From assembly GCA_030062745.1 (NCBI GenBank), contig CP099846.1:29347201-29411200 (forward strand): a stretch of 64,000 bases of DNA, written 5' to 3'. The notes under the pieces are model-generated. The model searched no databases. It had not been told where the DNA came from and saw nothing but the letters and a program-made list of their open reading frames with translations. The position numbers and the translations under genes were made by a program. This DNA comes from Capitulum mitella. Its lineage: Eukaryota; Arthropoda; Thecostraca; Pollicipedomorpha; Pollicipedidae. Below are positions 4,686 to 64,000 of this stretch, piece after piece (the stretch's first letter is position 1; every line of letters starts with the position of its first letter).

Positions 4686-7260
4686 TCAGGCGGCTGGCGG
4701 CTGTTTGGCCGCGCTCAGCAGGTGCTTGGGGCTGGGCTTGCGCGCCGGCTGCGGCTTCACCCTGGCCTGCGGCCGCAGCGCGCCGAGCCGGCCGGGCTCG
4801 TCCTCGCCGGTGGCCGGCAGCGGCCGCTCGGCGACGGGCGCCACGATCGGGACGGGCCGCGGCGCCGCCGGCCGAGGGCCGTCCGCGGCCGCGGCCCGGC
4901 CGGCCGGCCCCGGCGCCTGCCCGGCGGCGGCCTGCGCCACCGGCGCGGGCCGCGCGGCCGGCCCGTCGGCACGGCGGCCGGCGGCGGCCGAGTCGGGCCG
5001 CGCCGGCGGCGAGACGCGTCCGCCGCGCTTCACCGTGCACTGGTCCTGGCGCGCGAACGTCTCGGCGCCGGTGATCGGCACGGCAGCGCCCTCCTCGGAC
5101 GAGCCGCTGGCGCTGCGCTGCAGACAGCTCCATTCGGCCGGCAGGTCCATCACCAGGTCGGGCGTGTGCTTCAGCGAGAGGCGACGCGGCTCGCCGGCCT
5201 CGGCCGCCGCCCGGCTCTCCCAGAGGGCGCGCCGCGACAGCACGCTGCCGGTCGGCGGCGGTGGCGGCGGCGTGGCGACGGCGGCGGCGGCGGCCCGGCG
5301 CGGAGCGGCGCGCGCGCTGGCCGGCGCCGGGGGCGGCGGGTCGCCATGCTCGTCGGGCGACAGCTGGCCGGCGCGCAGCCGCTCCGTCACCAGCTCGATC
5401 TGGCGCATGGCCAGCTCCAGCTCGTCGGTGCCGGCCTCCTGCTCGTCGTTCGTCCAGCGCTCGGCGAGCGTCACCTCCAACGCTGGCCCGGCGCCGTCCC
5501 AGCCGTCGGCGAAGCCGTCCTCGGGGCTGCGCTGGCCGTCGGCCCAGCGGCCGGTCGGCTCGCCCTCGCCGTCCTCGCCGTCGGCGGCGGGGGCGGGGGC
5601 GGGCGGCGCCGAGCGACGCTGCTCGGCCGGCCGGCGGCGCGGACTGACGGCCGGCTCGGTCGGCGCCGGGCCGCGCTCGGTCGCCGCCCGGTGCAGCAGC
5701 GAGAGGGAGACGGCGCGCGGCGCCGGCGTCGGCGCGCCGCCGCGCGGCAGCGTGGCGCTCCGGTCCGGCACCCAGCGCTCCTACGGCCCGCCGGAAGAGG
5801 CAGGTCAGGACCGACTCCGGCATGGCAGCGGCCGACGGCCGGGCGCCGCCGGTGCGCGGTTAGTACCGCAGCCCACACCCGACACCGCCGGCACGGACCA
5901 GGAGACCCCAGCAGTCGGCTACCGCATACCCCCGGCCGCCGAGACCACCTCCGTCAGTCACGTGCCACGAGACACTATTATATAGCAGTGAGAATACTCC
6001 ACAACCGTACTATCGTACTAGTCACAGCACGTGGATAGCGTTATCACCCATCGCGCTACACCCAAGCAATATGCAGATTAGCTCGCCCGTATCATTCACA
6101 GCCTATAGCGTTATACCCTGCCTCCAATTCGGTCCAGTGCAACTGCAAGCTCAATCATGATTGGTAACTGAATGCGGGCGATTCCTAATCCACTACTGAC
6201 AGGCCCCGCACAGTCACCCACAGACTAAGTACGGTAGGTACGGTAGAGGGCCGTCCAAAGCATAAGCCCTTTGTTCGAGCTTTTACGCTGCTTCCAGATA
6301 ATGGCAAAACGACAGAGGCTGAAGGTAATTTATGGAGACAATCCATCATGCATCCGATCTTGAGATATTTCACTAACTTGGTGACACCACAAACTGTTCC
6401 AAATGCATGCTTTGAGGAACTAAGTAAAACATAGCCAGTAAGCACTTTGTGCTTGTTGGCCATGCGATAAAAAATATAACAGTCACCAGCAAGGGCCTCT
6501 CACAAATCTTCAGCCAGCACCTTACACCTTATACCTTATACCAAGAAAGTATTGTAGCGCTACTCCCCACTCATAACCAAATGCACATTCGGTGGATAAA
6601 GTCGGCTGTACCCCATTCAAAAGCTCTAACTGCGTGGTGGTGATTCTTTGGGTTCGCGAAGCTCAGGCTATGCGGCCCACGCTGTCCCGTACCCTGTGCT
6701 CCCTATACTGAGCTCCCAGAATGCCAAAAGAGTGGGAGAAGCGAGCCCAAGCCATTCTGAGGCGCAGCGGCGGGAAATCAAAACGAACTCACGTTTCGAA
6801 AACTAACAATGGTCGCTTCCAAAAGGGACACATGCCAGTGTTCATGTACTCGAAATACCACGTGCTATTTACTGGCGTTAGTGGACATAAAATAACTGAA
6901 AGCAAGCATCAGTGAAACAAGCACGCGAGCCGAGCGCGATATATACACACAAGCAGTGTTACATGATGCCACCTCTGGCGCAACCCCACAACGACGTCCG
7001 TGTACCGAAATTAGACGGCAAACGCTTAGTCTCCCGGGCCGGCATGCTACACGGACGTCTCCAGTACCTCGGCCGGCTCCTGCGCGGAGGAACTGGACAC
7101 GGTGGACAGGGTGGAGGTGGAGGAGCGCGTGCTCTTGGTGGCGGCCGCCGCCGTGTCGCCGGAGACGGAGGCGCGCGGCTGGCTGCCAGATTCGGAGCCG
7201 CTGGCCCGGTCCTCGTCCCTGGAACGGCCGGCGCCAGGGTCAGCGGCGGCACGCGCCCAG
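4686..7260 (-). CDS. srGAP: srGAP C-terminal tail (two exons)
   Basis: Exon 7260-7068 encodes a serine-rich, low-complexity linker (SGSESGSQPRASVSGD, then SSTSTLSTVSSSS) and ends in phase 0. Exon 5780-4686 starts after a TAG acceptor and encodes about 364 residues rich in Pro, Ala and Arg. It includes one amphipathic segment (ELELAMRQIELVTERL) and a basic end (ARVKPQPARKPSPKHLL), comparable in character to the disordered tails of vertebrate srGAPs. GC content is extreme. Long open frames on the other strand here are a by-product of that composition. Stop is at 4686-4688. Confidence 0.85.
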
Positions 7261-10200
7261 CTGACGTGGTCAGTTCCGGTACAATAGGGACGGCCAATCC
7301 GTTAACACGTCCCCTCTCACCCCAAGAGAAACGTCGGGTACTGCGTACTGCTAACGTACAAACTCGCACAGAATCTCGACAATTCTTTACAGCCCGCGCT
7401 CTTTCGGACCTGACCCAGGGGTCTCGGACATTCACCCACATCGCAAGTCGTACTGCATCTGGGTTACCTACCTGATCCTCAACATGCTGTATTTACCAGG
7501 CAACAGGTTGTCGTCCCCACCAGAGAAGCGCGACCCAGCAGATCCTGAGCATGATGAGCTTGCACGGCACGAGACCACGGTCCCAACCCGAGAGGTGCGA
7601 CCCACCTGATCCTGAGCATGACGTAATTGTCGGACGCGAGGCCGCTGCCCCACCGGAGGGTGGTAACCCACCTGATCCTGAGCATGATGTACTTGCCAGG
7701 CATAAGGCCGCTACCCCATCGGAGAGTGGTGACCCACCTGATCCTGAGCATGATGTACTTGTCGGGCACGAGGCCGTCCTGGCCGCGGAAGTGTCCGCGC
7801 CACCAGTCGGGCGAGACCTGCCTGTAGAGCGTCAGCACGTCGCCGCTGTGGAAGCTCAGCTCGCGCGCCGAGCGGGCCGCGAAGTCGAACTGCGCCACCG
7901 CCTCCAGCTGCTCACTCTCTGCGGCAGCCGGCCACGCGGCGGTCACCGGCCGCCACCGGACCGCAGCCGGGTCATGAGGCGCTGTTGGGCTTGCCAGGTC
8001 ACGTGGCCACCCTGGTCTGGTGAGTATGACGGGCGGCTGGGTGGGTCTGACGGACCAGGTGGATCGGGCGGGTCAAGTGGGTCAGGTAGGTTTGTCAGGT
8101 CAGGTCGGGTGGGTTTGGTAGGTCTGGCGGGTCTGGTCGGTTGGTCAGGTCACGTCAGATGGACCTGGTAAGTCTGGTCGGTTTGGCCATGAGAGTCAGG
8201 TGGTTTGGGCGGAGTCGCACATCTCATCGAGTGAAGGTGCTACGAGGACAGTGTTGGAAACCTGGTTTTTCTTCCTGGTGTCGGAACACAAATTCTGTTT
8301 TGGAGTATAAAATGTCATGCGTTTACGTGAGAAACATGGACTAACTAGGTGCTTTGCAAGCATATGTGGCCAGCAGGAGCGGATCCAGTGGCTCTGTTTG
8401 GGGAAGCAAACCAGTTTCCTGGGTCTACTTGGTAGGTCAGCGGAGTCGTTGACGGGGGGGGAGGGGTGGAAGGCGGGCAGGCCGCGGATTCGTCAGAGCG
8501 TACTTCAATGGCTGAGTATGAGTGGTAAATCATTATCCGGGGGGGGGGATGCTAGGCAACTTGAAACCCTGGATGAGTAGAAATATCCATGTCTTTCTTG
8601 GGGAGGGGCAAATGACCGTTTTGGAGTACAAAATTCTTCTTGGAGTACAAATTTTTTGGTGCTTCTTGACACCAGAAAACGAAAGTTTTCCCAACACTGT
8701 ACGAGGATGCAGAGGCGAAGGGATCACAAACAAGCCTCCGTCAGAGCCATAACGAGGCTCGGGCTTGTGCTGTGGTTGCGTCACGAGTTTACAATCGCTA
8801 CCATAAATAATTCATACGACAATCAGGTTCTGAAGCAGACGTCACTGCAGTGCCGAAAGTACATGCGCCGCTATTCACCGGCTGCAACAACAGTTTCCAC
8901 TTGGCGCATACTGCAACACCCCGTGCACGATGCTCGGGCGGCCATTTTGCATCGTCATGCGGCCGCGTTGTGTGTCCGATTACGACGCACCTCATGCAAC
9001 TCAAACAATCGCAAAATAAAACCCCGTGAATGGCCCTATCAGGTGGTGGTGCGTATCTCATGATGAAAGAAAACGGATACTGCATCGCAATATGATGAGG
9101 GGATAAAGACATCCACTTACTGCCAAATATCTGCAAACTTATGTCCCTCTCCCTTTCTTTGAGGGTCGCATCTGTAAAACAAAATGGAAAAACAGCGGCT
9201 AAGAAAACAAAGACAGCATGGGAAATATATATAAAACATAAAAAGAAGACAAAAACGTACCGGTGTGCCAATACCAATAAAACATAAAATTAAAAGCTAC
9301 ATAAAATACGGCCATAACATGAAGACTTCACGCTAGCAAAACGTGTGTTACAACAAAAAAATAGTCTTTAAGCCCAGCATACGAAAGGTGGTCCAGACTT
9401 TAGTGTATGATTAACATGAATATCCCATCTGCAAGAGCTGCTATTCAGACAACGCACTTTTAACCGCCATAATCCGAGGAAAAGGCTCAGGCAATGGGAA
9501 TCTGGGAGTAACTGCCATCTCACTACAAACTGAGGGCAGCGCGCGCATAAAAAAAAAAAATGGAGGACAGCTCCGACCCAGTGCCATCCGTGGGAGGACA
9601 GTTACAGCATCTCACCGTCCTCAGAACACAGTTCCCACCGATCACCGCCTTTCGGGAACGGCTGCGGCTCCTTACTGCCCTCGGAAGACAGTTCCAGATC
9701 TTCAGCGTCCTCAGCGGACAGCTCCGGCTCGTTAACATCCTCAGAAAACAGCCAACGGCTCTCACTGTCCACAGAGGACTACTCTGGCTTCTCGACATCC
9801 TCGGGAGATCATTCTGACTTCTCAATGCCTCCGGAGGACAACTCTAGAACCTCAGTCCTCAGAAGACTATCCTAAACGTTATCGGAGGACTACTCGAGCC
9901 CCTCAGCCTCCTCAGAGGACCACTCTGGCTCCTTACCGTCCTCGGAGGGCGGCTCCTGGTCCGGCTCGTCCACGGAGGCGGCCGACTCGACGGGAGCCTC
10001 CCCGATGTCCTCGGCCTCGTCTGGGCCCTGGCTGATGTACTTCTCGTAGAAGGGCCCGCCGTCGCGCGGGAAGATCTCCTCGTGGCGGAGGATGATGTGC
10101 TTCATCAACTCGTTCACCAGGTTCTGGTACTGGACCTGGTCCTTGCTCTCCGGGATGGGCAGCAGCGTCGGCCCAAAGCAGATGGCCAGGTTGTATGGCT

Positions 10201-16200: not shown

Positions 16201-17076
16201 ACAGCCCCACTCACCTCTGTGTCAAGTCTTTGTGGCGCTGTGTGAGGGACTTGTGCAGCTTCTCTAGACTTCGACTGTACTCCAGTTCCACATCAGCTCG
16301 CCGCCGAAAAAAGTCCTGGAACAAACAAGGCAAGCAATTCAGGGAAAGGCATTGCATTCTACTGCACTACTTTTTATCAGTTACCTAGATAATGAAGGTA
16401 AGAATGCACTCACCTGCACAGATGCAAATATCTTAGCCCATGCAAAAACCCCAAGTCCCACAAAAATATAACATTACATAAAACCCAAAATGCACACTAG
16501 ATGCAACACAGAACTGCAGTGGCAAGTCACAGGTGGTGTTAATGTACAAAGGCTGTGGTACTGTTTGGAGTAATGGGGTGCAAACAAACATGTGTGATCT
16601 ATGAATATGTAACAACCTTTTAGACACACAACAAATTTCTCACCTGCAGTTCAAAAAGCAGAGCTGACTGTGTGTCAACACGGGCATCCAGACATTTCAG
16701 CTGCTCGGACAGCTGCACCTTAAGATCTGCAATAATTGCTTGGCTGAAGACAGGAAGTGTTTGGCATACATGTAGAACCAATCAAAATATTTCCATGTTC
16801 TTGACGTAAGTTATGCATAGGTTAACACAGTGGGTGCAGTCCAGTACTGTAATGTAGGCCCAGCATAACATTTACCATGCACAACAAAACCAATGTCCTC
16901 ATCTCTTTTCCCCTCATCATACTTGATCATCATGCTTATGTCCAGAAGCACTTGCCAGATAGCATGTGTGATTGTTTCCACCCTCTGGCCAATACCTAGC
17001 ATCTGAAAAACCTCACCTTTCACAATACCTTCAAAACCAGCCTCCTTCTTGGATGCCCTTTTTTCTGATGACATGG
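4686..17076 (-). CDS. srGAP: SLIT-ROBO Rho GTPase-activating protein (srGAP), 13 exons plus tentative start exon
   Basis: The gene encodes a cytoplasmic adaptor that bends membranes through its F-BAR domain and switches off Rho-family GTPases downstream of Slit-Robo signalling. Minus-strand exons in order of translation: 16743-16644, 16315-16215, 15736-15571, 14885-14664, 14272-13922, 13558-13289, 12935-12621, 11706-11535, 10607-10502, 10232-9937, 7918-7738, 7260-7068, 5780-4686. All junctions keep phase and use AG/GT sites. They give about 1,190 codons, near the 1,050-1,100 of vertebrate srGAPs. Order is F-BAR, RhoGAP, SH3, proline/alanine-rich tail. Family-specific blocks include RRRADVELEYSR, ERGEDPLADVSD, DINSVAGVLKLYLREL, RYLFAFLSHL and NLAICFGPTL. 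The true start codon is not settled. The gene converges with HPDL and diverges from WDR11. Confidence 0.93.
7466..7782 (-). repeat. 66-67 bp tandem repeat, five copies, overlapping the srGAP SH3 exon end and donor
   Basis: The conserved core gatcct occurs at 7474, 7541, 7608, 7674 and 7740, giving periods of 67, 67, 66 and 66. On the minus strand each unit is about 39 bp of SH3 exon end (ending KYIMLRI) plus about 27 bp of intron start. The rightmost unit is the genuine exon end. The splice donor GTGGGT is kept in the copies ending at 7738, 7672 and 7606, is lost in the fourth copy (near 7540), and appears as GTAGGT in the fifth (exon end at 7472). The first three copies are in one open frame. 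Confidence 0.9.
7738..7918 (-). CDS. srGAP: srGAP SH3 domain exon
   Basis: The exon encodes a full SH3 fold: AVAQFDFAARSARELSFHSGD, WWRGHFRGQDGLVP and DKYIMLRI. These show the ALYDF-type start, the E-L-S-F RT-loop end, the paired Trp and the terminal P-x-x-Y. SH3 domains of srGAPs bind Robo and WAVE-family proline motifs. The exon begins in phase 1 (acceptor at 7919-7921) and ends in phase 2. Its donor at 7737-7732 is the first of a tandem series of near-identical donors 66 bp apart, described separately. It joins 7260 to give an S-W-A-R-A junction. Confidence 0.93.
8020..8215 (+). repeat. G/T-rich simple repeat (ggtcaggtnggt type)
   Basis: Irregular tandem repetition of about 8-11 bp units such as ggtctggcgg and ggtcaggtcg lies in the srGAP intron between the SH3 and linker exons, directly upstream of the hAT-type MITE at 8249. 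It opens several spurious frames. I see no function. Confidence 0.8.
8249..8699. mobile_element. non-autonomous hAT-type MITE, copy 1 (451 bp, 8-bp target duplication)
   Basis: The element starts CAGTGTTGGAAA and ends with the inverted match TTTTCCCAACACTG. It is flanked by a perfect 8-bp direct repeat, TACGAGGA (8241-8248 and 8700-8707). CA-G termini with an 8-bp duplication are typical of hAT transposons. The inside is non-coding, with repeated ttggagtataaaat-like text. It sits in an srGAP intron. Related copies are at 12213-12512 and 47812-48115. Confidence 0.85.
9560..9960 (-). repeat. 30-bp minisatellite overlapping the end of the srGAP linker exon and its donor
   Basis: About 13 degenerate units of roughly 30 bp run leftwards from the 3' end of exon 10232-9937. 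The plus-strand consensus is near aggacagctctggctcctca plus ccgtcctcgg. On the minus strand each unit carries exon end (encoding Ser-Glu-Asp/Glu) followed by a donor-like gtaagg or gtgaga. The donor in use is at 9936-9931. Good copies of the donor also sit at 9675-9670, 9615-9610 and 9765-9760. A TAG at 9890-9892 closes the frame soon after the real exon end, so donors further left could not give a full-length protein in this frame. Confidence 0.85.
9937..12715 (-). CDS. srGAP: srGAP RhoGAP domain exons
   Basis: The GAP catalytic domain starts in the 3' part of exon 12935-12621 (IPLIVRSCVRVINL, then GIFRVSGSQ, with the catalytic arginine finger in GIFR). It continues through 11706-11535 (VEINNFRDSFERGEDPLAD, LKLYLRELREPFFP), 10607-10502 (TLPRSVQIVMRYLFAFLSH) and 10232-9937 (FSDENMMEPYNLAICFGPTL, then VNELMKHIILRHEEIFP). 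The arginine finger and the LPxxxxxLxxYLF and NLAxxFGPxL motifs are intact, so GAP activity is expected. The last exon adds an acidic linker and ends at a gtaagg donor after 9937. Confidence 0.92.
11199..11423. repeat. 112-bp tandem duplication in an srGAP intron
   Basis: Two head-to-tail copies begin catcctctaaagg at 11199 and 11311, with a period of 112 bp. Both include gttccgcccctcaaa and aacatgaacacat. They differ at scattered positions, so the duplication is not recent. No coding function is seen; open frames through both copies are shadows. Confidence 0.85.
12213..12512. mobile_element. hAT-type MITE, copy 2 (300 bp)
   Basis: It runs from CAGGGCTGGAAATTTGG to TTTTCCAACCCTG, with flanks tcgttcat and tcgcacat matching at 6 of 8 positions, a worn target duplication. 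The interior shares gttcttggtgtcagag, tttttgttctgga and acctgcttctta blocks with copies 1 and 3. It lies in the srGAP intron just downstream of exon 12935-12621. Confidence 0.75.
12621..16743 (-). CDS. srGAP: srGAP exons encoding the F-BAR domain and linker (7 exons)
   Basis: These exons form the inverse-curvature F-BAR dimer that binds plasma membrane. Exon 16743-16644 gives the first helix (QAIIADLKVQLSEQLKCLD). Exon 16315-16215 has DFFRRRADVELEYSRSLEKL, the most conserved F-BAR segment. Exon 15736-15571 has TRQEARDRATLGDVYSS. Exon 14885-14664 has HEELFRLIHEL. Exon 14272-13922 has NKYQDTRLQALRARNDF and the DLPDAIDCTDVG block. Exon 13558-13289 supplies a long coiled-coil. Exon 12935-12621 continues with KFSELVADSSLLARLQVKRELL and ends inside the RhoGAP domain with GIFRVSGSQ. 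Introns range from about 330 to 1,080 bp. Several of them contain transposons. Confidence 0.92.
17018..17076 (-). CDS. srGAP: tentative srGAP start exon
   Basis: A pyrimidine-rich tract and acceptor (minus strand, about 17077-17095) lead directly into CC-ATG at 17074-17072. The frame starts MSSEKRASKKEAG, similar in character to the short basic starts of srGAP proteins (M-S-S-x-x-x-x-K-K). The best donor, AAAG followed by gtgagg near 17018, leaves phase 1, but the next recognised exon (16743) needs phase 2. So either a small exon is missing, another donor is used, or there is a sequence error. The acceptor implies an upstream untranslated exon. The frame runs open to about 16811 if unspliced, which I do not think is coding. 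Confidence 0.4.
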
Positions 17077-62916: not shown

Positions 62917-63819
62917 TCAGATCTTCTGCATGGCCTCCAGGATCAGGTCCCCCACGTGGTCGCCGTCGTTGTAGCGGACGATGCGCACCTGGCCCTGCAG
63001 GTCGTCGTCGGCCGCCGCCACGCCGACCAGCGTGTCCAGCATTTGGTGCATCTGGCTGCTGAAGTCCTCCTCGCTGAGTCCGGCCGGCCCGTGCTGCCGC
63101 AGCTTGCGCAACGTCTTTAGCGCCGAAACGGCGTCGAGCGCCACGTGGCGGCTGCGCTTACCGTCGCTGGAGCGCACCTCGTGCACGGAGAAGCCGCCGT
63201 ACGAGCGCTTGTTGCCGCCGGCGAAGCACCGGAACGGCTCGAGGCTGTAGAGCTGCCGGCCGACGCCGGCCAGGTCGTCGTCCTGCAGACCCTCGAGGTC
63301 GCCGTCCGGGTAGCGGCCGTTGCAGGGCGCCAGCACAATCACGGCCTCCGTGTAGAGCTTGTCGGCCTCCTGCGGGTGCTGGTTGCGGTGCGCCTGCAGC
63401 CGGCGGCGCACGCCGTGCTGGCCTCGCATCAGCCGCAGGTAGCCGTAATAATGGCTGAAGGCGACGCCGCCGCCGATCTGCCACGAGTGGACGGCCTCGA
63501 TGTCGCCGCGCGGCGGGCCGAACCAGTCGAGCACCGCCGGCGCGACGACCAGCACCAGCGGCAGCGCCGTCAGCCGCGCCAGCGGCGCCCAGCCCGTCTG
63601 CGTCAGCAACAGGGCGACCAGCGCCGCCGCCGCCGCGCCCCACCGCAGCCAGCCCGGCGACTGCTGGCTGTCCGTCTCGTAGTGCTGATAGCCGGGCCGT
63701 GCGGCCACCGACTGCGGCGCCGGCGGTGGCCACCACCAGCGCACCAGCGCGTGCAGCATCTCCACGGCGAAGCCCACTGCCAGCGACATGGCGAGCCGCA
63801 ACAGGATCAGCTTCAGCAT
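62917..63819 (-). CDS. STING1: STING (stimulator of interferon genes), complete single exon
   Basis: A 300-residue protein of the innate immune sensor that binds cyclic dinucleotides at the ER. Hydrophobic segments at about 5-25, 60-75 and 80-98 form the membrane part. The ligand-binding domain starts near 110: GGGVAFSHYYGYLRLM matches the human dimer-interface and base-stacking helix, with Ser122 and Tyr127 in place of human Ser162 and Tyr167. Arg205 and Tyr207 (KRSYGG) align with Arg238 and Tyr240; Asp229 and Ser232 align with Glu260 and Thr263. The end ILEAMQKI coincides with the end of the binding domain, so the TBK1/IRF3-recruiting C-terminal tail of vertebrates is absent. A stop lies in frame upstream at 63856-63858, and ATG 63819 has GCC before it. 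It lies opposite in strand to WDR11. Human STING has 379 residues and four membrane helices; here I see three. Confidence 0.9.
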   Translation of the reverse strand: MLKLILLRLAMSLAVGFAVEMLHALVRWWWPPPAPQSVAARPGYQHYETDSQQSPGWLRWGAAAAALVALLLTQTGWAPLARLTALPLVLVVAPAVLDWFGPPRGDIEAVHSWQIGGGVAFSHYYGYLRLMRGQHGVRRRLQAHRNQHPQEADKLYTEAVIVLAPCNGRYPDGDLEGLQDDDLAGVGRQLYSLEPFRCFAGGNKRSYGGFSVHEVRSSDGKRSRHVALDAVSALKTLRKLRQHGPAGLSEEDFSSQMHQMLDTLVGVAAADDDLQGQVRIVRYNDGDHVGDLILEAMQKI

Positions 63820-64000
63820 GGCGATTCGGCGCCACGCGCCTCCGGAACGACTCGGTCACGTGTCGACCGCCGTCTGACGCCGCGCGGTTGCACCGAACCC
63901 GCACCTCACCCGCGCGCCGTCTGTCGGACACTGGTACTGCGTCCTTCTGCACTGTGGCGCATGGCCTTGACTCCAGGGGCGCAGTCAGGATATCGTAAGG
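63820..64000. other. STING 5' flank
   Basis: GC-rich sequence upstream of the STING start. It should contain the 5' untranslated region; no promoter motif can be defended. Confidence 0.5.

Follow-up and report, generated by a model that had tools for sequence, protein, structure and literature searches.

Tandem copies of a splice donor lie behind the SH3 exon of an srGAP-type gene, and judged from the sequence they are probably a decaying minisatellite at the exon's edge, a tolerated by-product in which the first donor would normally be used and the others might serve now and then as alternatives, rather than a length switch favoured by selection. The array looks like a by-product of a repeat-rich genome and not like a purpose-built switch, and being in frame and open is an outcome to be expected by chance in a fraction of such arrays.

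The srGAP-type gene and its SH3 exon

The window, that is, the whole stretch of DNA analysed (64,000 nucleotides), lies at contig C8:29347201-29411200 in a genome of 477,042,490 bases in 16 contigs. The domain order of an srGAP, a SLIT-ROBO Rho GTPase-activating protein, with F-BAR, RhoGAP and SH3 in this sequence, is present in the window, all on the minus strand, the FCH match being weak. The SH3 exon matched the Pfam family SH3_1 (E 7.2e-12), and in a phmmer search of the PDB the SH3 domain of srGAP2 (63.9 bits) ranked first among those listed chains that matched over a single stretch. Four listed chains (sorbin, GRB2) stood above srGAP2 by summing two SH3 domains; the best single sorbin SH3 domain reached 39.6 bits against the 63.9 of srGAP2. 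By its sequence, an open reading frame further downstream is probably the last coding exon of the srGAP-type gene, and we take it to resemble the tail of vertebrate srGAPs. The features of the gene and of the array are as follows, a slash marking a splice junction.

16229-16321, minus strand: FCH (F-BAR) fragment, PF00611 at C8:29363429-29363521, 28.3 bits against a cut-off of 27.8
12704-12615, minus strand: start of the RhoGAP domain of the same gene, Pfam RhoGAP E 1.6e-5
7918-7738, minus strand: SH3 exon, 181 nt, ending with two bases of a codon; preceding intron ends in AG at 7920-7919
7737-7672, minus strand: array unit 1, 66 bp; GTGGGT donor at its start, the exon's last 39 nt copied at its end; open
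7671-7606, minus strand: array unit 2, 66 bp; GTGGGT donor at its start; open in frame
7605-7539, minus strand: array unit 3, 67 bp; GTGGGT donor at its start; frame shifted by one extra base
7538-7472, minus strand: array unit 4, 67 bp; starts CTGGGT, donor lost; in-frame TGA at 7481-7479
7471-7466, minus strand: GTAGGT, the last donor, following unit 4; not in frame and beyond the TGA
7218-7068, minus strand: next coding exon after SH3, 151 nt, placed by homology to contig C1; donor GAG/GTACTG
5780-4686, minus strand: candidate last coding exon (KHTPDLVMDL...LQRSAS), an open reading frame with stop TGA at 4688-4686

Between the RhoGAP and SH3 regions, a short exon-like block at 9115-9151, followed by GTAAGT, is 95% identical over 37 bp to the gene copy on contig C1 described below. 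The intron just upstream of the SH3 exon carries a degenerate tandem repeat at 8077-8177 (TRF periods 18-50), and elsewhere in the window a gene with a STING ligand-binding domain lies at 62917-63855 on the minus strand (Pfam E 7e-15).

Anatomy of the array

The array overlaps the exon-intron boundary of the SH3 exon, as seen in the sequence, in the TRF scan and in the comparison with contig C1. TRF placed it at 7533-7776 with a period of 66, 3.7 copies, 78% matches and a score of 276, the second highest of 28 rows; read directly, it comprises units of 66, 66, 67 and 67 bp, and the array that an earlier sequence-only reading of this DNA had described is real. Most of that description held on inspection: the junction CAG/GTGGGT is identical after 7738, 7672 and 7606, units 1 and 2 are open and in frame with SH3, the donor of the fourth copy is lost (CTG/CTGGGT after 7539) and the fifth copy (CAG/GTAGGT after 7472) is out of frame. 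The last 39 nt of unit 1 are 90% identical to the end of the SH3 exon, unit 2 is 82% identical to unit 1, and a tree of the units had supports of 0.59-0.96 and one very long branch, so that we draw no sequence of duplication events from it. A search of viral contigs for relatives of the array found none.

Read in the SH3 frame, units 1 and 2 hold no stop, and the first one comes in unit 4, the TGA at 7481-7479. When the step from unit 1 to unit 2 was simulated under neutrality, 46-63% of runs likewise gave no stop, so the openness of these two units is weak evidence. The TGA would be premature, because the gene probably continues to the last exon at 5780-4686.

A second srGAP copy without the array

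A DNA search of the genome with positions 7400-7950 returned the window itself and C1:2824685-2824902, at 90% identity over query positions 6-222, and a protein search with the SH3 exon and the next exon gave six matches, namely the window's two exons, the SH3 exon on C1 (87%) and three others at 31-36%. The copy on C1 has the SH3 exon, one donor (CAG/GTGGGT) and no array, and its next exon begins CGCAG/GGACGAAGAC. Repeat copy number thus differs between the two srGAP paralogues, the C1 copy being without an extra unit. Aligned by blastn with the window gene, the C1 stretch gave blocks in the same order with most of the intervening sequence unmatched, and from this pattern we took the aligned blocks to be exons. 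They include 7221-7095 (78% identity), 12950-12616 in the RhoGAP region and, in several pieces, part of the candidate last exon (5448-4971). The window acceptor at 7218 reads CCAG/GGACGAGGAC; because the C1 exon starts CGCAG/GGACGAAGAC, the exon after SH3 most likely begins at 7218 and not at 7260, where it had been placed before, the phase being the same.

The SH3 exon on C1 (L002:1528-1709) carries one base more than that of the window and loses the frame after about 16 codons, and is otherwise conserved. It might be a pseudogene in the making or an assembly error, and since this exon is out of frame by one base the C1 copy may not be fully functional. An ancient whole-genome duplication has been reported for barnacles (PMC11331182), and our guess is that the two srGAP genes date from it.

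A further reading is that the array is an assembly artefact, a case that the sequence-only reading had also raised, or a collapse of reads. We give this a negligible chance, because the copies differ from one another by 18-37%, unlike the product of an assembly duplication; in its favour we found nothing in the array, and can point to the one-base frameshift on C1, which might itself be an error of assembly.

Composition and origin of the repeat unit

In all four units the leading 27 nt match the opening 27 nt of the C1 intron, with shuffle p values of 0.0005-0.0035 with the donor hexamer and 0.003-0.04 without it, which are not four independent tests as the units are related. Against the exon's own preceding 27 nt, the same stretches gave no significant match unit by unit in nucleotide shuffles, and summed over units the match had p 0.050 with the donor and 0.25 without. 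When the summed test was run against the stretch following the last donor instead, p was 0.010 with the donor and 0.15 without; compared with the C1 intron start, the 27 nt that follow the last donor owe their match to the donor itself (p 0.03 with it, 0.35 without). Because the unit starts match the C1 intron start and not significantly the exon's preceding 27 nt, part of the unit appears to be intronic. On this sequence comparison each unit most likely joins the end of the exon to the start of the intron, in keeping with the earlier proposal of about 39 nt of the one and about 27 nt of the other.

An exonic origin of the whole 66-bp unit, whose spacing fits SH3 codons, was considered and set aside once the C1 intron start had been matched. 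In its fuller form, in which all 66 bp duplicated would be exonic and new splice sites would arise as in the tandem-genomic-duplication model, this account could draw on the frames of units 3 and 4, which resemble the SH3 residues WRGHFRGQD (p 0.01-0.02, the units not being independent), and on the summed nucleotide p of 0.050 with the donor. We regard it as extremely unlikely, the exon match being non-significant unit by unit or without the donor and the match to the C1 intron start being significant.

The reading that we prefer, a decaying exon-edge minisatellite, would then run as follows. A minisatellite would have arisen over the 3' end of the SH3 exon when the exon's last 39 nt and the intron's first 27 nt were duplicated head to tail, and the array would have expanded and decayed to its present 66, 66, 67 and 67 bp. 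The normal mRNA would come from joining the 7738 donor to 7218; those at 7672 and 7606, with equal U1 pairing, may be used and would then add 22 or 44 residues; and use of the donor at 7472, or intron retention, would lead to a premature stop. The array would be tolerated because the first donor and its exon remain intact.

Constraint on the insert

Of the 12 differences between units 1 and 2, 11 are transitions. Six changes are synonymous and six non-synonymous, an excess of synonymous changes over the 24-27% expected in simulation (P 0.02-0.04), and seven of the 12 fall at third positions (P 0.044-0.048). When the unit was split by hand, all four changes in the intron-derived 27 nt were synonymous, and the exon-derived 39 nt held two synonymous and six non-synonymous changes, about 25% synonymous being expected without constraint. 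Measured against the SH3 exon, unit 1 has two synonymous and two non-synonymous changes, and unit 2 none and four. The signal of constraint is therefore weak and in the wrong half, since SH3-like residues, if they mattered, should be the constrained ones, and these substitution patterns lead us to lean towards a 22-residue insert without protein-level constraint. A 22-nt run holding the donor is unchanged between units 1 and 2; the probability of this by chance is 0.077, and we did not take it as evidence of selection on the donors.

These counts bear on the proposal of a length-variable splice switch put forward by the sequence-only reading, in which a regulated choice among three equal donors would add 0, 22 or 44 residues and so tune the SH3 domain. 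The donors are identical and so is their U1 pairing, 66 bp is 22 codons with units 1 and 2 open, the synonymous excess goes in the right direction, and tandem repeats at exon-intron boundaries have been reported to yield alternative splicing in human paralogues (PMC2812944). We nevertheless consider a dedicated switch unlikely, given that the exon-derived half of the insert looks unconstrained (2:6), that unit 2 has no synonymous change at all against the exon and four non-synonymous ones, that the second srGAP copy is without an array, and that arrays recur in this genome regardless of frame, the one in THOC3 (below) being of the same type and unable to encode an extension.

Strength and choice of the donors

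Pairing energy with the U1 5' end was computed as -10.9 kcal/mol at the first, second and third donors, -3.5 at the lost donor, -11.3 at the last and -5.7 at the donor of the next exon. With the last donor at -11.3 against -10.9 for the first three, U1 pairing alone does not single out the first. Predicted accessibility of the last donor was the lowest among the five (0.18 against 0.44 for the first), and a small hairpin was predicted at each of the first three donors (-6.3 to -8.8 kcal/mol), as at the C1 donor (-4.9).

The slightly better pairing of the last donor would suit an unproductive-splicing brake, in which the 7472 donor or retention gives a frame ending at 7481-7479, the transcript is degraded and srGAP output is lowered. 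Transcripts of this kind would be degraded by nonsense-mediated decay, which this reading assumes. The in-frame stop lies before the last donor and one or more junctions should follow downstream (7068 to 5780), in line with such a brake; yet the difference in U1 pairing is small and the last donor is the one predicted to be least accessible, and we hold the brake to be quite improbable.

In DOK7 and many human genes, SRSF1 bound upstream is reported to suppress the intron-distal of two competing donors (PMC5585400), and because SRSF1 can act in this way use of the first donor is not certain. Competition of this sort can resolve toward the intron-proximal donor (PMC5585400), which, with the identical U1 pairing at 7606, could be taken to mean that 7606 is the donor normally used and that the longer form, with a constitutive insert, is the main protein. 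This seems to us very unlikely, as the matching donor on C1 is the only one of its kind, the following exon starts with DED codons and the SH3 residues copied into unit 2 have drifted. In vertebrate srGAPs, too, the exon after SH3 presumably starts with DED codons.

An array of the same kind in THOC3

Twenty arbitrary 10-kb stretches of the genome, 199 kb in all, were scanned with TRF, and arrays covered 5.6% of this sample, or 4.4% counting those with a period of 20 or more. Among 64 distinct arrays with a period of 20 or more from the sample, the window and the C1 stretch, two carried at least two strong donor 9-mers on one strand, namely the srGAP array and an array in the gene for THO complex subunit 3 (THOC3). 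The exon before the latter matched that protein (7znk_C, E 1.1e-23), as did the next exon (E 1.5e-36). The THOC3 exon end and its donor are repeated at 78-bp spacing (L010:8897-9249; contig C1:10008896 and on), giving five CAG/GTGAG junctions and then one CAG/GTAAAG 40 bp on. Skipping the first donor brings an in-frame TGA at once, so this array cannot lengthen the protein.

Splice-site arrays across the genome

Genome-wide, a pattern of three CAGGTRRGT donors with gaps of 50-80 gave 180 matches (138+42) against 32 (23+9) for the pattern written backward, and three TTTCAGG acceptors gave 224 (93+131) against 15 (6+9), all of these being counts of matches and not of distinct arrays. In the 20 sampled stretches the single donor motif outnumbered its reverse 9 to 3, some of the nine falling in the THOC3 array, and the single acceptor motif did so 46 to 22. 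The true enrichment is thus smaller than 180:32 and 224:15, since single motifs are commoner than their reverses and matches cluster within arrays. Counted by hand, the matches fall in at least 24 distinct places for donors and at least 47 for acceptors, some perhaps chance triplets; the CAGGTRRGT pattern for its part misses degenerate arrays such as that of THOC3.

We took the flanks of the first 12 distinct donor arrays among the matches listed. In eight of these (L036, L037, L038, L041, L043, L044, L045 and L046) the first strong donor ends a coding-type frame, by our judgement. GC3 minus GC2 was 0.28-0.50 in seven of the eight, the doubtful L037 having 0.14, compared with 0.39-0.54 in three known exons, and the two measured among the other four arrays showed no third-position GC excess (L039, -0.02; L047, 0.04). 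For L037, L041 and L045 the chosen frame is not the longest, the longer frames having values of 0.08, -0.40 and -0.10. Pfam gave no family for the 10 array-flank frames searched, and of five exon-type frames out of the eight compared with the PDB four were unmatched, the exception being L041, with a weak match to METTL3 (E 0.011) that reaches the last residue before the donor. Since Pfam and the PDB give nothing for most of them, most array-flank exons rest on frame and composition. A search of the genome with the L044 exon found no copy besides itself. On the acceptor side, a clear coding frame followed the last acceptor in three of eight flanks (L049, L052 and L053), again judged from the frame.

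Reading on past the first donor in the chosen frame, a stop comes immediately in L045 and L046; L038 runs for 23 codons, L037 for 44 and L044 for 55 before one, and in L036, L041 and L043 none comes before the end of the retrieved sequence. The first donor spacings are 66 in srGAP, 78 in THOC3, 62 in L036, 64 in L037, 34 in L038, 34 in L041, 72 in L043, 33 in L044, 30 in L045 and 28 in L046; five of these 10 arrays placed at exon ends have a spacing divisible by three, against 3.3 expected. Judged by sequence, then, the srGAP array is a member of a recurrent class of exon-edge minisatellites.

Several single arrays deserve mention. At L041:982 and on (near contig C2:35694481) a METTL3-like exon end and its donor are repeated at 34-bp spacing. 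The 72-bp exon-end units of L043 (contig C3:23721045-23721197) are identical in the part examined, in frame and open, and from these features L043 is a good candidate for a real length-variable exon end. A long array at contig C1:30096062-30097028, the start of which lies in L038, has units TCTCTCCGTCTCACAG/GTAAGT with an acceptor-like tract directly before the donor, which resemble back-to-back (recursive) splice sites.

A broader reading is possible, though doubtful: that a large genome-wide class of exon-edge minisatellites acts as a standing supply of alternative exon ends, and that the srGAP donors make real extensions of 22 and 44 residues. If so, exon length, isoform ratio and unproductive splicing would evolve through fast-changing repeat-copy number, at donors and acceptors alike. 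In searches of the open-access literature we found no report of splice-site-multiplying arrays as a genome-wide class, and what may be new here is how often arrays multiply existing splice sites in one genome, as sampled.

Comparison with known systems

How one of several identical donors at even spacing is chosen is a classic question in splicing, and here it is posed by natural arrays in several genes, including that of the core mRNA-export factor THOC3, with an array-less copy of srGAP as a control. Should the first donor always win, the arrays would be a clean natural demonstration that the exon side fixes the splice site; should it not, repeat-copy number would be a source of variation in protein and expression.

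Zhuo et al. in 2007 reportedly described human introns derived from tandem arrays, the new introns being bounded by direct repeats. The srGAP array shares with these the multiplication of splice sites by tandem duplication, but is without an evident new acceptor. Within human segmental duplications, internal tandem repeats that lie at exon-intron boundaries can change splicing (PMC2812944). As in that case, the srGAP array consists of tandem copies at an exon-intron boundary whose number differs between paralogues; whereas the human study concerned novel introns and examined transcripts, the srGAP array, described here from its sequence, reaches from the edge of the exon into an intron already present, whose donor it multiplies.

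Tandem genomic duplication of AGGT is a known route to intron gain (PMC3443670; PMC2891723), and in both cases a duplicated AG/GT junction becomes a splice site. In that model the duplication is of exonic sequence, one AGGT copy becoming the donor and the other the acceptor. The srGAP array does not have this arrangement: its unit is part intronic and only donors are rebuilt, and by eye we saw no pyrimidine tract before the AG of any array junction. A further parallel is DOK7 intron 4 (PMC5585400), where adjacent donors likewise compete for U1 and one choice shifts the frame. The DOK7 pair is regulated by SRSF1, with no repeat array mentioned in the excerpted text of that paper, whereas the adjacent donors of the srGAP gene lie in a repeat array.
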